Shown here one piece after another: positions 1,064 to 9,792 of a stretch of DNA of 64,000 nucleotides (position 1 is its first letter; every line of letters starts with the position of its first letter). A model generated the notes under the pieces. That model saw only the letters and a program-made list of their open reading frames with translations, had not been told where the DNA came from and did not search any database. The position numbers and the translations under genes were made by a program. Source of the stretch: Stutzerimonas stutzeri (GTDB taxonomy: Bacteria; Pseudomonadota; Gammaproteobacteria; Pseudomonadales; Pseudomonadaceae); the NCBI RefSeq assembly GCF_000935215.1, contig NZ_JXXD01000240.1, positions 1 to 64,000 of the forward strand, given 5' to 3'.

Positions 1064-1741
1064 TCACTCGTCATAGGCGGCGAGCTTGCGGTTGTCGAGA
1101 ATCTCGATGCGTCGCCGCTGGACCGATATGGTTCCGGCGTCGATCAGCCGATGCAGGATGCGCGAGAAGGTTTCCGGCTGAATGCCCAGTTTCGACGCGA
1201 TCAAGCGTTTCGGCACATCGAGCACCACCACGCCGCTGTCGTCCTGCTGCGATTGCGCGAGAAAGCGCACCACGCGATGGCTGGCGTTGGCCAGGGTGAG
1301 GGTGTCGATCTCGGTCATACGCTGGTGCAGACGAATGCTCAGGGTGGCGAGGATGTCTAGGCAGATATCCGGGTGCTGCTCGAGAATTCGCCGGTAATGC
1401 GGCCCGTTCAGGCTCGCCACCAGGCTGGCCTTTAGCGCGGTGGCGCTGACCGGATAGCTCGGCGTGCCCTTGAACAACAGCGCTTCGGCGAACGATTCAC
1501 CGGCACGCATCACTTCCACCAGCTTCTCCTGCCCGTCGCAGACTACGCGGTGCAGCTTGATCTGGCCGCTGAAGAGGAAATAGAAGCGGTCGGCCTTATC
1601 GCCCTGATGAAACAGCGAGGCCCCCGCAGGCAGGCGCTTCAGGTTGGCAGAGGTGCACACCTCCTGTAACGCCGCCTCGGGCAGTCGGCTGAACAGATGG
1701 TGGCGGCGCAATTCCGCGACCAGGGTTTTTTCAGTGAGCAT
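1064..1741 (-). CDS. dnr: Dnr-type Crp/Fnr family transcription regulator
   Basis: This 225-residue protein has an N-terminal cyclic-nucleotide-like beta barrel (about residues 15-125: FHQGDKADRFYFLFSGQIKL, then GESFAEALLFKGTPSYP), a long dimer helix (RLHQRMTEIDTLTLANASHR), and a C-terminal winged helix with recognition segment KLGIQPETFSRILHRL. It resembles P. aeruginosa DNR closely and lacks the N-terminal cysteine cluster of Anr/Fnr, so it is expected to be a haem/NO-type rather than an Fe-S oxygen sensor. I chose the ATG at 1741 because GGGGGAGGA lies just ahead of it; a longer frame to 1822 has no such site. P. stutzeri is known to carry several Dnr paralogues. I recall DnrS as the one linked to nrdD, but cannot verify it here. 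Confidence 0.9.
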   Translation of the reverse strand: MLTEKTLVAELRRHHLFSRLPEAALQEVCTSANLKRLPAGASLFHQGDKADRFYFLFSGQIKLHRVVCDGQEKLVEVMRAGESFAEALLFKGTPSYPVSATALKASLVASLNGPHYRRILEQHPDICLDILATLSIRLHQRMTEIDTLTLANASHRVVRFLAQSQQDDSGVVVLDVPKRLIASKLGIQPETFSRILHRLIDAGTISVQRRRIEILDNRKLAAYDE

Positions 1742-1872
1742 GTGTCCTCCCCCGGATTGAACCGGGTTTATCAGCCTGCATCCTAGGAGTCCGGTGTCCG
1801 CCGCTTCCTTGATCACGGACAAGAGTGTCGGCCATGAGCCGTCGGCGCCGTCGGGCGATCACTTGCCTGTGC

Positions 1873-1886
1873 TTGACGATGATCAA
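1873..1886 (+). promoter_or_regulatory. FNR/ANR/Dnr box upstream of nrdD
   Basis: TTGACGATGATCAA matches TTGAY-N4-RTCAA in full. It lies between the divergent dnr and nrdD genes, with its centre 92 bases from the nrdD ATG and about 138 from the dnr ATG. Activation at -41.5 would start nrdD transcription near 1921. The half-sites are identical to those of the box at 1025, which suggests one regulator for both. Confidence 0.75.
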
Positions 1887-1971: not shown

Positions 1972-3990
1972 ATGCCCAGGCAGGCAGAGGTGGCGAAACC
2001 GGTTTCACTGCGCAAGCGCGATGGCCGACTGGCGGCGTTCGAAGTGGACAAGATCGAGCGCGCCATCGCGGCGGCGGGCGCGGCGACCGGCGAGTTCGAG
2101 TTGGCAGTGGCGCAGGCATTGGCCCAGGCCGTTCGTCAGCAACTGGCCCATCGCACGGCGGTGGAGGTGGAGCAGGTGCAGGACGGCGTCGAGCGTGCCC
2201 TGATGGCAGCCGGCTACTTCGATACCGCCCGGGCCTACATCGTCTACCGCGAACGCCATGCGCGTCTGCGCCGAGATCGCAAGGTGGTGGTCGACGTCGC
2301 CGCCTCGATGAACGAATACCTCTCCCGCGAAGACTGGCGGGTGCGCGCCAACGCCAACCAGGGCTACTCACTCGGCGGGCTGATCCTCAACGTGTCTGGC
2401 AAGGTCACCGCCAACTACTGGCTGGACGAGGTCTACAGCCCGGAGATCGGCACGGCGCATCGCGAAGGCGATCTGCATATCCATGACCTGGACATGCTCG
2501 CCGGCTATTGCGCTGGCTGGTCACTGCGGACCCTGCTCAATGAGGGCTTCAACGGGATTCCGGGGCGGGTTGAGGCCGGCCCGCCCAAGCACCTGTCCAG
2601 CGCGCTGGGGCAGATGGTCAATTTTCTCGGCACGCTGCAGAACGAGTGGGCCGGCGCGCAGGCGTTCAGCAGCTTCGATACCTACCTCGCACCGTTCGTG
2701 CGCAAGGACAACCTTGGCTTCGCCGAAATCCGCCAGGCCATTCAGGAGTTCATCTACAACCTCAACGTGCCGTCGCGCTGGGGCACGCAGACCCCGTTCA
2801 CCAACCTGACCTTCGACTGGGTCTGCCCGGAAGACCTGCGCGAACAGATCCCCTACATCGGCGGCGAGGAGATGCCCTTCGCCTACGGCGAGCTGCAGGC
2901 CGAGATGGAGCTGATCAACCGTGCCTATATAGAAGTGATGCAGGCCGGTGACGGCCTCGGCCGGGTTTTCACCTTCCCGATCCCGACCTACAACATCACC
3001 CACGACTTCCCCTGGGACAGCGAGAACGCCGAGCGCCTGTTCGAGATGACGGCGCGCTACGGGCTGCCGTACTTCCAGAACTTCCTTAATTCGGACATGC
3101 AGCCGAACCAGGTGCGTTCGATGTGCTGCCGCCTGCAGCTGGACGTGCGCGAGCTGCTCAAGCGCGGTGGCGGGCTGTTCGGCTCTGCCGAGCAGACCGG
3201 TTCGCTGGGCGTGGTGACGGTCAACTGTGCGCGGCTGGGCTATCTCTACCGTGGTGACAAGGCGGCGCTGCTCGAACAGCTGGATGCGCTGCTGGACATG
3301 GCGCGGCAGAGTCTGGAGGTCAAGCGCAAGGTCATCCAGCACCATATGGATGCCGGGCTCTACCCCTACACCAAGCGTTATCTGGGCACGCTGCGCAATC
3401 ACTTCTCCACCATCGGGGTGAACGGCTTGCACGAGATGGTGCGCAACTTCACCGACGACACCGAGGGGCTGCAGACCGCTGGCGGTCGCGCCCTGGCGAT
3501 CGAGGTGCTCGACCACGTGCGGGCGCGGCTGGTGCAGTTCCAAGAAGACACTGGGCACCTCTACAACCTCGAGGCGACGCCGGCCGAAGGCACCACCTAT
3601 CGTTTCGCCAAGGAAGACCGCAAGCGCTTCCCCGACATCCTCCAGGCGGGTTCGGCCGAGGCGCCGTACTACACCAACTCCTCGCAACTGCCGGTCGGCT
3701 TCACCGACGACCCCTTCGAGGCCCTGGAGCTGCAGGACGAGCTGCAGTGCAAGTACACCGGCGGCACCGTGCTGCACCTGTACATGGCCGAGCAGATTTC
3801 GTCGGCTGAGGCCTGCAAGAAGCTGGTACGCAATGCGCTGTCGCGTTACCGCCTGCCTTACCTGACGGTAACGCCCACCTTCTCGATCTGCCCGGTGCAC
3901 GGTTATCTCGCTGGCGAGCACGAGTTCTGCCCGAAGTGCGATGAGGCGCTGCTGCACAAGCAGCAAGCCGAAGCGGCCCTGGCGGTCTGA
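1972..3990 (+). CDS. nrdD: Class III anaerobic ribonucleoside-triphosphate reductase, large part without glycyl-radical loop
   Basis: This 672-residue protein makes deoxyribonucleotides without oxygen. Residues about 8-95 form an ATP-cone (LRKRDGRLAAFEVDKIERAI). The ten-strand barrel follows, with candidate active-site cysteines at 180 (GYCAGW) and 385/386 (MCCRLQ). A zinc site closes the protein: Cys640 and His643 in CPVHG, Cys653 and Cys656 in CPKC. The family normally continues within about 15-20 residues into the glycyl-radical loop RVxGY. Here the frame stops 16 residues after Cys656, and that loop is in the next gene. The ATG at 1972 has GGAGG five bases upstream; upstream TTG/ATG codons are less well placed. 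An FNR/Dnr box precedes the gene. Confidence 0.93.
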   Translation: MPRQAEVAKPVSLRKRDGRLAAFEVDKIERAIAAAGAATGEFELAVAQALAQAVRQQLAHRTAVEVEQVQDGVERALMAAGYFDTARAYIVYRERHARLRRDRKVVVDVAASMNEYLSREDWRVRANANQGYSLGGLILNVSGKVTANYWLDEVYSPEIGTAHREGDLHIHDLDMLAGYCAGWSLRTLLNEGFNGIPGRVEAGPPKHLSSALGQMVNFLGTLQNEWAGAQAFSSFDTYLAPFVRKDNLGFAEIRQAIQEFIYNLNVPSRWGTQTPFTNLTFDWVCPEDLREQIPYIGGEEMPFAYGELQAEMELINRAYIEVMQAGDGLGRVFTFPIPTYNITHDFPWDSENAERLFEMTARYGLPYFQNFLNSDMQPNQVRSMCCRLQLDVRELLKRGGGLFGSAEQTGSLGVVTVNCARLGYLYRGDKAALLEQLDALLDMARQSLEVKRKVIQHHMDAGLYPYTKRYLGTLRNHFSTIGVNGLHEMVRNFTDDTEGLQTAGGRALAIEVLDHVRARLVQFQEDTGHLYNLEATPAEGTTYRFAKEDRKRFPDILQAGSAEAPYYTNSSQLPVGFTDDPFEALELQDELQCKYTGGTVLHLYMAEQISSAEACKKLVRNALSRYRLPYLTVTPTFSICPVHGYLAGEHEFCPKCDEALLHKQQAEAALAV

Positions 3991-4064
3991 TCTGCGATCC
4001 CGTGTCACGCCGCTCCAATAGGTGCGGCGCCGCATAATCAACCCTAAGCAAAAGGAGCGTCACC

Positions 4065-4220
4065 ATGAACCCAGCCAGCCAACTGCCCCAGGACCAGCGC
4101 CAACGTTGCGAAGTCTGGACCCGCGTGATGGGCTATCACCGCCCGGTTACCGCTTTCAACCCGGGCAAGCAGTCCGAGCATCGCGAGCGCCTGCATTTCA
4201 CTGAAGCAGCGGCGCGGTGA
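4065..4220 (+). CDS. Stand-alone glycyl-radical domain of class III ribonucleotide reductase
   Basis: This 51-residue protein has its own ribosome site (AAAGGAG, ATG at 4065). Its core TRVMGYHRPVTAFNPGKQ matches the C-terminal glycyl-radical segment of NrdD (RVxGY, then FNxGK and a basic tail). Gly23 would be the radical residue made by NrdG. nrdD stops 74 bases upstream, right after its zinc site, so the two proteins together equal one normal NrdD. The nrdG GTG overlaps this stop by four bases, implying coupled translation. The separate start and ribosome site argue against a simple frameshift. I infer that it docks on NrdD as the radical subunit; a spare-part role like YfiD/GrcA for pyruvate formate-lyase is the alternative, but NrdD itself lacks the loop. 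Confidence 0.85.
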   Translation: MNPASQLPQDQRQRCEVWTRVMGYHRPVTAFNPGKQSEHRERLHFTEAAAR

Positions 4221-4912
4221 CCGCAGCACTTCGCGTCGGGGGGCTGGTCCCCCTGACCACGCTGGATTTCCCAGACCATCTGGCCTGCGTGCTGTTCTGC
4301 CAGGGTTGCGGCTGGCGCTGCCGCTACTGCCACAACCCGCAGCTGATCCCCGCCTGTGGCAGTGAGGAAAAGCCCTGGCCGGAGATTCTCGCCTTTCTCG
4401 AACAGCGCGTCGGCCTGCTCGAGGCGGTGGTGTTCAGCGGTGGCGAGCCGACCCTGCAGACCGCGCTGCCCGAGGCCATCGCCCAGGTGCGGGCGCTGGG
4501 CTACAAGGTCGGCCTGCACAGCGCCGGCATCAAGCCGAAGCTGTTCGCCAACATCCTGCCGCTGGTGGATTGGGTCGGTTTCGACATCAAGGCGCTACCC
4601 GAGCACAGCAGCGCGATCACCGGCGTGGATGGCAGCGGCAAGGCCAACTGGAAGAGTCTCGAACACCTGCTGGAAAGCGGCGTCGAGCATGAGTGCCGGA
4701 CCACCGTGCACTGGCAACTGTTCGACGCCGACATGCTGTGGGACATGGCTCAGCGCCTGCGCCGGCTGGGTGTCGAACGCTTCGCCGTGCAGTGCGTGCG
4801 CACCGCGCGCATGCTCGACGACAGCCTCGCCGAGAGCCGCGCACCCTACGATCAGCAGCGCCTGTGGGAACGGCTGGACCAGCTGTTCCCTTCGTTCGTT
4901 TTGCGAGGTTAG
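4217..4912 (+). CDS. nrdG: Anaerobic ribonucleotide reductase activating enzyme (radical SAM)
   Basis: This 231-residue radical-SAM enzyme would abstract hydrogen from the glycine of the upstream small protein using S-adenosylmethionine and a 4Fe-4S cluster. Cys31, Cys35 and Cys38 (CGWRCRYC) form the CxxxCxxC cluster site, and SGGEPTLQ is the SAM-binding GGE motif. It is longer than E. coli NrdG (about 154) and fits the NrdG2 subfamily, which has a full C-terminal part of the barrel. The GTG start overlaps the preceding stop (GTGA), so its output is tied to the radical-loop peptide. It is the last gene of the nrdD operon and is followed by a strong hairpin. Confidence 0.92.
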   Translation: MTAALRVGGLVPLTTLDFPDHLACVLFCQGCGWRCRYCHNPQLIPACGSEEKPWPEILAFLEQRVGLLEAVVFSGGEPTLQTALPEAIAQVRALGYKVGLHSAGIKPKLFANILPLVDWVGFDIKALPEHSSAITGVDGSGKANWKSLEHLLESGVEHECRTTVHWQLFDADMLWDMAQRLRRLGVERFAVQCVRTARMLDDSLAESRAPYDQQRLWERLDQLFPSFVLRG

Positions 4913-8364: not shown

Positions 8365-9792
8365 ATGCAACCGCCCGTCTCACTCGACGCCCGTACCGCG
8401 CGGATTTTGCCGTGGCTGGTGGCCATCGCCTTCTTCATGCAGACGCTGGACGGCACCATTCTCAATACCGCGCTGCCCGCCATGGCGCGCGATCTGGCGG
8501 AAAACCCGCTGCGTATGCAGGGCGTTGTGATCGCCTACATGCTCACGGTGGCGTTGCTGATTCCGGCATCCGGCTGGATTGCTGACCGCTTCGGTAGCCG
8601 GCGCATCTTCGTGACCGCCATCGTGCTGTTTTCCGTGGGCTCGCTGTTGTGCGCGTTGTCTACCAGCTTCAACCAGCTGGTGGCTTCCCGCGTGCTGCAG
8701 GCGCTGGGCGGAGCGCTGATGCTGCCGGTGGGGCGGCTGGTGGTGCTGCGGGCATTTCCGCGCAGCGACTTCGTGCGGATCATGGCCTTTATCGCGCTGC
8801 CAGGACTGGTCGGCCCGTTGCTCGGGCCAACCCTGGGTGGCTGGCTGGTGGAGTACGCCTCCTGGCACTGGATATTCCTGATCAATCTGCCGGTGGGCGT
8901 GATTGGCTGCATCGCCGCGCTGCGCTTCATGCCCGATCTCAAAGGGCCCGAGCGGGTACGCTTCGATACGCTCGGCTTCCTGCTGTTCGGCGCAGCGATG
9001 GTGCTGGTCACCATCGCGCTCGAGGGGCTCGGCCAGATGCACATGTCGCATGCCCGCGTGATGCTGCTGCTGTTCGGCGGCGCAGCTTGCATGGCGGCCT
9101 ACTGGCTGCGCGCCGGGCGCATCGATGCGCCGCTGTTCAGCCCCAAGCTGTTCCATACGCGCAGCTTTGCGGTGGGCATCTTCGGCAACCTGTTTGCCCG
9201 GCTGGGTGGTGGCGCGCTGCCGTTCCTGTTGCCATTGCTGCTGCAGGTGGCGCTTGGCTATTCGCCAGCGCAGGCCGGGATGAGCATGATTCCGCTGGCC
9301 TTGGGTGCGATGGCGGTCAAATCCCTGGCCAAGCCGATCATCGATCGTCTCGGTTATCGCCGTCTGCTGATCGGCAACACGCTGCTGCTCGGCTGCCTGA
9401 TCGCCAGTCTGGCGACCATCGATGGACAAACGCCGACGTGGCTGCTGCTGGTGCATCTGGGCCTGATCGGCATGGTCAACTCGATGCAGTTCACCGCGAT
9501 GAACACCGTCACCCTGGTCGGCCTTAGTCATGCCGACGCCAGTAGCGGCAACAGCCTGCTGTCGGTGGTGGTGCAGCTATCAATGAGCCTTGGCGTCGCC
9601 ACCGCCGGTGCGCTGCTGGGAGGCTTCACCGTGGACGACGCGCAGGGCAGCGAGGTGCTGCGGGCATTTCAGCTGACGTTTCTCTGCGTCGGCGGTATGG
9701 CGATGCTCGCTGCCGCATTGTTCCTGCAGCTGGAACATCGCGACCCTGGCCATGACGACGATGTGCGGCGACCGGTGGACGTCGGCGAGTAA
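8365..9792 (+). CDS. mdtD: MdtD-like MFS multidrug exporter (DHA2 family)
   Basis: This 475-residue major facilitator protein matches E. coli MdtD along its whole length. The landmarks are FFMQTLDGTILNTALPAMA in helix 1, ASGWIADRFGSRR (motif A), GPLLGPTLGGWLVEYASWHWIFLINLPVG (motif C region), GYRRLL in the second half, and SSGNSLLSVVVQLSMSLG near the end. About 14 transmembrane segments are expected, with a proton-driven export role at the inner membrane. No membrane-fusion or outer-membrane partner gene is adjacent. It is a single-gene unit flanked by a pair of near-identical 23-base repeats. The substrate is unknown. Confidence 0.88.
   Translation: MQPPVSLDARTARILPWLVAIAFFMQTLDGTILNTALPAMARDLAENPLRMQGVVIAYMLTVALLIPASGWIADRFGSRRIFVTAIVLFSVGSLLCALSTSFNQLVASRVLQALGGALMLPVGRLVVLRAFPRSDFVRIMAFIALPGLVGPLLGPTLGGWLVEYASWHWIFLINLPVGVIGCIAALRFMPDLKGPERVRFDTLGFLLFGAAMVLVTIALEGLGQMHMSHARVMLLLFGGAACMAAYWLRAGRIDAPLFSPKLFHTRSFAVGIFGNLFARLGGGALPFLLPLLLQVALGYSPAQAGMSMIPLALGAMAVKSLAKPIIDRLGYRRLLIGNTLLLGCLIASLATIDGQTPTWLLLVHLGLIGMVNSMQFTAMNTVTLVGLSHADASSGNSLLSVVVQLSMSLGVATAGALLGGFTVDDAQGSEVLRAFQLTFLCVGGMAMLAAALFLQLEHRDPGHDDDVRRPVDVGE

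Follow-up and report, generated by a model that had tools for sequence, protein, structure and literature searches.

What becomes of a class III ribonucleotide reductase, an oxygen-sensitive maker of DNA precursors, when its gene ends before the loop that bears its radical residue? The question is raised by a 64,000-nucleotide stretch of Stutzerimonas stutzeri DNA (contig NZ_JXXD01000240.1; hereafter the window), in which the nrdD gene lacks the glycyl-radical loop and a separate small gene, lying between nrdD and nrdG, encodes it. We conclude, with a probability of about 0.8, that the locus specifies a working two-polypeptide class III reductase, whose 51-residue part (the tail) holds the radical hairpin, docks non-covalently on the large chain (the body) and is activated by NrdG at Gly23. 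A sequence-only reading of the window had proposed a radical enzyme with its radical residue on a tiny subunit, and this is now strongly supported by homology to solved NrdD loops, by conservation, by unlinked and mobile copies and by predicted docking.

According to the same reading, NrdD stops 16 residues after its zinc site and the missing loop appears 74 bases later as a gene of its own, with its own ribosome site and an overlap with nrdG. Its observation of a split is confirmed, and its statements on the sequence all hold (Table 1). The body ends in ...CPVHGYLAGEHEFCPKC plus 16 residues. It matches the Pfam family NRDD (562 positions) over profile positions 2-528 with 583.7 bits, NF006126 over positions 4-653 of 684 with 1138.7 bits, and also the ATP-cone. 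The small open reading frame (ORF), which starts 74 nt past the body, has the translation MNPASQLPQDQRQRCEVWTRVMGYHRPVTAFNPGKQSEHRERLHFTEAAAR and matches the C-terminal part of the NrdD profile (NRDD positions 531-562, E 1.4e-8; 34.3 bits, cut-off 26.2). The loop that class III enzymes carry at the C-terminus of the same chain is therefore found here on a separate ORF. The GTG start of nrdG falls within the last codons of the small gene (an overlap of 4 nt), and the radical S-adenosylmethionine (SAM) activase is encoded beside nrdD, as expected of class III NrdD (PF13597). A profile search of the whole source genome gave no NRDD matches besides body and tail. The bodies of Stutzerimonas kunmingensis BUN14 and S. 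chloritidismutans AW-1 share 99% identity with that of the window.

Seen in a lone genome, such a locus could suggest a decayed or misassembled nrdD, and one metagenome-assembled genome (MAG), G132, whose tail is interrupted by a stop, could be taken in the same way (see below). The genome survey refutes this explanation, to which we assign a vanishingly small probability. Of 56 genomes of the genus that were searched, 45 had an nrdD match, and all 45, single-contig assemblies included, gave body and tail as two matches; because of this, assembly error and chance are excluded. Fifteen of the other 44 genus genomes were read at base level (L003-L014, L111, L328 from G048 and L329 from G011), and in every one of them body and tail are separated by one stop or more. 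Further evidence against decay comes from the tail itself. Its core has a ratio of non-synonymous to synonymous substitution rates (dN/dS) of 0.107, compared with 0.140 over the final 200 body codons (2,314 non-independent pairs, 78 named loci), which indicates that the tail is under purifying selection. All 117 unique split tails (117 of 117) have a cysteine four residues ahead of TRVMGY, and the radical glycine is kept in 106 of 106 unique tail cores, the motif itself having been used to find these cores. As a separate observation, genome G047 has, in addition to a split operon, a second, one-chain nrdD with an nrdG-like frame on a 0.9-Mb contig (G047:C2:133633-135291).

Could read-through or ribosomal frameshifting nevertheless join both frames into one chain? 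The tail does lie in the body frame at 27 of 127 distinct split loci, as read-through would allow, but it lies in frame 2 at 54 and in frame 1 at 46 of them. The gap between body and tail, 74 nt in the window, ranges in relatives from -38 to 483 nt (117 measured), with no fixed frame and with no intron, intein or endonuclease at the break. A ribosome-site match of at least four bases precedes the tail at 118 of the 127 loci, a count that used the best-scoring start per locus and leans upward; no start was called at seven of the loci and a wrong one far upstream at a few, a start near the motif being visible by eye. Finally, genome G689 has tail and nrdG paired 9 kb upstream of the body. Frames, gaps, ribosome sites and G689 together refute a joined chain for most loci, and we regard it as very improbable. 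The same kind of break was also seen in a distant NrdD type (G674 and G738), where a body with a TAG stop is followed by a 61-residue ORF with ARTRRITGYL and by an nrdG-like frame. This break arose independently.

The split reaches much wider than the pseudomonads and recurs across Proteobacteria. In a family sample of 148 genomes, 56 had a match, and in 55 of these a frame difference or an in-frame stop separates body and tail, the exception (G125) being a contig-end fragment. Where both matches fell within the length of one open frame (12 parsed DNAs and G132), at least one stop lay between them in every case. A class sample of 276 genomes gave 28 with a match (21 split, five one-chain and two partial), and a phylum sample of 397 gave 66 (17 with a split of this type, two with a split of another type, 46 one-chain and one partial), some genomes recurring between samples. 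The one-chain NrdDs are mostly of a distant type, and the E. coli-like loci L132-L158 match the window body at only 54-120 bits. Among the named relatives, which are the best 80 matches among genome contigs and range from Pseudomonas and Stutzerimonas to Thioalkalivibrio, Thiobacillus and Methylococcaceae, 78 are split and the remaining two end before any tail could show. L081 and L087 have no visible tail; their contigs end soon after nrdD, that of L087 in a repeat-like array (by eye). L127 and L130 are contig-end pieces. At a body match of at least 300 bits there were 153 loci, a count that takes in the window itself and repeated loci, of which 143 are split, six are one-chain and four are cut by contig ends.

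The order body, small gene, nrdG is also found on plasmids of Cupriavidus, Bradyrhizobium, Shinella, Sulfuricystis and Sulfuricurvum (Campylobacterota), and the record annotation gives the small protein as 'nrdD: anaerobic ribonucleoside-triphosphate reductase'. On pHG1 of C. necator H16, where the locus was examined, the body has 676 residues and is followed by a small gene of 66 residues and nrdG; the nrdD locus of CH34 is also split. Passages of PMC2864759 report the NrdDG of C. necator H16 to be essential for complete denitrification, and passages of PMC4860495 describe thinner biofilms formed by nrdD mutants of P. aeruginosa.

How the two parts might fit together can be judged from enzymes in which they are one. 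The one-chain relative L168 (CPKCGEETKVWTRVMGYHRP) joins the zinc site and the loop, and this places the break in the split enzyme between the two. In an alignment, the loop glycine of the split enzyme falls opposite Gly621 of T. maritima NrdD, the residue named in passages of PMC4493059. The active-site cysteines C172 and C378 (L048 numbering) occur in all 49 rows of alignment A3, as do the columns C, H/C, C, C that we read as the zinc site. For structure prediction, the pair from P. flexibilis (L048) was folded as a single chain, read through its in-frame stop. The resulting model had a predicted local distance difference test score (pLDDT) of 83.9 and a predicted template modelling score (pTM) of 0.81, with pLDDT values of 74-86 for the blocks of the tail and 56 for the artificial linker. 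Its alignment to P. copri 8p2s_B (553 residues, 2.8 A, Z 34.8) runs on through the loop, as does that of model residues 123-702 to residues 27-589 of the T4 1h7a chain, whose radical residue is Gly580. This was the second folding alignment, extended by unsplit viral NrdDs before the tail was placed. The tail is thus predicted to dock at the canonical position of the one-chain loop; the model supports docking, short of proof of binding between separate chains.

In the enzyme that we envisage, the large chain contributes the ATP-cone, the zinc site and the barrel that bears the active-site cysteines, and the small chain of 51 residues contributes the glycyl-radical hairpin. The small subunit would dock non-covalently at the place that the C-terminal loop takes up in a one-chain NrdD; NrdG would then remove hydrogen from Gly23 of the docked small chain, and the radical would move from Gly23 to an active-site cysteine. 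Oxygen cuts glycyl radical enzymes at the radical glycine. Here such a cut would cost 51 residues and spare the 672-residue body, and only the small part would need to be remade. The split, its spread and constraint, the separate translation signals and the lone viral copies (below) are observed; the placing of the radical on Gly23, the non-covalent assembly and the remaking of the 51-residue part are inferred.

If the tail is a detachable part, it might be expected to occur alone. Indeed, with the small protein of the window as query, 71 IMG/VR contigs were found, and in 69 of these a whole-record NRDD search gave no NrdD body over the cut-off; the other two, L258 and L259, also have a body. 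Among the 69, the loop match of G848 itself falls just under the cut-off, G865 shows an additional weak match that does not reach it, and G883 has another, weak loop. In the available flanks of the viral tails, NrdG was found in L259 only. Among 30 neighbouring proteins from 21 viral loci, a PHROG search recognised terminase, portal, head, tail or further virion proteins at 11 of the loci. For comparison, queries made of the C-terminal 60 residues from two unsplit NrdD types found 27 viral loci, none of them stand-alone: 25 lie in an ORF with at least 400 residues upstream, and the remaining two look by eye like genes interrupted by inserted endonuclease-like ORFs. Viral scans with the fused relative L168 and with the body alignment A2 gave no loci and four loci, respectively; they used different patterns and allow no fair count against the 71 tails.

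Stand-alone tails were not confined to these contigs. The archaeal virus ANMV-1 (KP703175; L191, 2686-3120) encodes a 144-residue protein that ends in the loop and stands alone within 3-kb flanks. Plasmid pALVIN01 of the purple sulfur bacterium Allochromatium vinosum has a lone tail annotated nrdD (L190, 3492-3701), with no body or nrdG in its 3.5-kb flanks. Genome G419 has a split operon and, in addition, a spare tail (L267, reverse strand, 8511-8699) between recT-like and ssb-like genes (by eye); class II reductase-like, YqaJ-like and DnaN-like genes are also seen by eye near this copy. The window tail and the other stand-alone tails tested (n=10), except that of ANMV-1, match phrog_4132 ('unknown function') at positions 111-157 of 179, and we propose that this family contains stand-alone NrdD radical subunits.

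The lone viral copies suggest that the tail is a replaceable part. Since the host body lacks a loop, the tail is obligate and not only a spare, and we take the whole as an obligate two-part class III reductase to which the radical subunit can be supplied in trans. The simplest use of a phage-borne small subunit without a body would be to maintain or revive the host class III reductase during infection, with the advantage of supplying a cheap part. The viral copies also bear on two other explanations. In the first, the enzyme is an obligate two-subunit one with no repair role: the tail binds once, the split is a neutral fission and the viral copies are accidental or otherwise used. Two one-chain plasmid proteins that resemble re-fusions (see below) imply that separateness is dispensable, which is in keeping with this explanation. 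However, 69 of 71 viral records have a tail without a body, compared with none of 27 control loci, and this weighs against it because a detachable part allows supply in trans; we consider it rather unlikely. In the second, the viral tails act as decoys: by binding to the host body they would stop anaerobic deoxyribonucleoside triphosphate (dNTP) synthesis, to the detriment of the host or of a rival phage. The docking motif is kept, and a competing small protein could block assembly. A decoy would have no need of the radical glycine, which is nevertheless present in 61 of 61 unique viral cores; as scan and pattern both select for the motif, this counts only weakly against the decoy, which we think improbable.

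Several observations weigh against a working two-part enzyme supplied in trans by phages. The structural model was made as a single chain, with one-chain homologues in its alignment, and docking was in this sense partly built in; an earlier model from a shallower alignment reached a pLDDT of 65.6 and left the tail unplaced. The viral records are of 4-108 kb, often fragments and mostly metagenomic. In 17 of the 71 there are fewer than 800 nt on one side of the motif, the other 54 having at least 800 nt on both sides. The patterns of the viral scan include the motif, whose conservation there is partly by construction. The same query in an annotated phage collection gave 14 records, all below 60% identity and mostly annotated as full NrdD; ANMV-1, whose stand-alone protein is described above, is the one of these that was read. 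Among cellular genomes, the MAG G132 (L339), which is counted among the 55 divided genomes of the family, has its in-tail stop, a sign of either error or decay, next to the radical glycine codon; stops also lie between its body and tail.

The cysteine that precedes the loop may be a mark of detachment. Beyond the split tails, where it is invariant, it is found in 57 of 61 unique viral cores and in ANMV-1, and it is missing from the one-chain proteins L168, L103, L119 and L186 and from T. maritima NrdD. We considered this residue, Cys15 of the window tail, as a possible zinc ligand or disulfide tether; the four viral cores without it and the independent split of the distant type, which also lacks it, weigh on that idea. 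Two one-chain plasmid proteins, L181 and L185, look like re-fusions, since both have the cysteine and a longer linker and L181 groups with a split enzyme (98/93). A tree of 48 bodies has at least three changes between the split and one-chain states on well-supported branches; its bootstrap is unsettled, 25 of 45 inner branches are open and one join is possibly a long-branch effect, the program having warned that L168 and one more sequence meet the long branch of L166. Several viral tails (L203, L205, L215, L220, L238 and L250) are extended at the N-terminus by a Cys-rich segment (PCAH...C...C..C.AY), which may be a metal-binding domain. In L262 (IMG/VR 3300028887_000018), near 4001-4111, a TGA stands in place of the conserved glycine of the NxGK motif, which suggests that this phage reads TGA as glycine.

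The closest known systems are the spare parts of pyruvate formate-lyase (PFL), namely YfiD/GrcA and Y06I, the latter a protein of phage T4, so that a phage-borne form exists there as it does for the tail. Like the tail, as described in passages of PMC8683613, these are small stand-alone loop proteins that complete a far larger radical enzyme. The differences are that PFL retains a loop in its own chain and turns to the spare only after damage, whereas the host NrdD body here has none; that the Pfam family and the enzyme are different; and that repair by the tail is a proposal. The sequence-only reading had drawn a loose likeness to YfiD/GrcA. The part about a similar way of working stood, given the viral records with a tail and no body, and exchange of the tail after oxygen cleavage is plausible by analogy. 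The likeness did not extend to family or to status as a spare. In Pfam scans, the window tail and nine related stand-alone tails matched NRDD and had no match to the PFL-type glycyl radical family, and the source genome, with its loopless body, has a single tail. A viral tail would be an extra copy where the host has its own, and the G419 genome has both.

Compared with one-chain NrdD (T. maritima 4coi, T4 1h7a and P. copri 8p2s), the split enzyme shares the fold, the zinc site, the active-site cysteine columns, the loop sequence and, in the model, the loop position; it differs in having the loop on a separate gene and an invariant cysteine before it. NrdJa/NrdJb of Pseudomonas aeruginosa is likewise a reductase in two genes, found in many of the same bacteria, but is of class II, and its detached part consists of C-terminal domains and not of the radical residue; passages of PMC4520616 call it the only split ribonucleotide reductase found in a non-viral organism. 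Phage nrdD genes with introns or homing endonucleases (passages of PMC3653736) also have the NrdD frame in pieces. Those breaks are due to selfish elements and lie in varied places, whereas the split described here is clean, at the boundary of zinc site and loop, with no element between.

We found no published report of this split, within a coverage that left out the text of the 2014 N. bacilliformis and 1999 A. eutrophus nrdDG papers, either of which possibly names the small gene. A split class III enzyme of this kind is not stated in the passages covered of PMC4860495, PMC9669993, PMC11226230, PMC4390871, PMC4493059, PMC9176816, PMC9531940, PMC11194802, PMC2864759, PMC3019208, PMC2795772, PMC3653736, PMC3267527, PMC4520616 and PMC8683613. 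Passages of the last of these hold that only two PFL spare parts, YfiD and Y06I, have been validated and that spares for other glycyl radical enzymes are possible. On balance, we lean towards the view that the tail is an exchangeable class III radical subunit, the first for any ribonucleotide reductase: a throw-away peptide used across Proteobacteria, which many phages would carry alone (phrog_4132) to keep or restart the anaerobic dNTP supply of the host, and a counterpart of GrcA for DNA synthesis. It would provide a concrete and widespread spare-part candidate for a DNA-synthesis enzyme and assign a function to a family of phage proteins that has no name. A further consequence is that, in assays that lack the small gene, NrdD bodies from these bacteria should show no activity.

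Table 1. Coordinates of the split locus in the window and of the distant-type splits
Feature	Sequence	Positions	Strand	Remarks
nrdD body; ATP-cone, barrel and zinc site, without glycyl-radical loop	window	1972..3990	+	672 residues, stop TGA
Zinc-site segment CPVH...CPKC near body C-terminus	window	3889..3939	+	16 residues, then stop; read from sequence
Ribosome-binding site AAAAGGAG of small gene	window	4050..4057	+	7 nt before ATG; read from sequence
Small gene (tail), predicted glycyl-radical subunit	window	4065..4220	+	51 residues, ATG start; Pfam NRDD 531-562
Cys15 of tail, four residues before TRVMGY	window	4107..4109	+	invariant in split tails
Gly23 of tail, predicted radical glycine	window	4131..4133	+	aligned with Gly621 of T. 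maritima NrdD
nrdG, radical SAM activase	window	4217..4912	+	GTG start; TIGR02495 NrdG2, E 6e-64
Putative Anr/Fnr-like box TTGACGATGATCAA	window	1873..1886	+	one mismatch to TTGATNNNNATCAA; 86 nt before nrdD start; consensus match
Distant-type split, 61-residue ORF with RRITGYL	L169 (G674)	4057-4248
Distant-type split, 61-residue ORF with RRITGYL	L159 (G738)	3400-3591

Putative Fnr-like boxes, identified as consensus matches alone, number three in the 64 kb compared with 0.78 expected, and 3 of 100 shuffles reach three. A second such putative box lies at 1025-1038 of the window, and a divergent gene for a Crp/Fnr-type regulator (by eye; 1064-1822, minus strand) adjoins nrdD.

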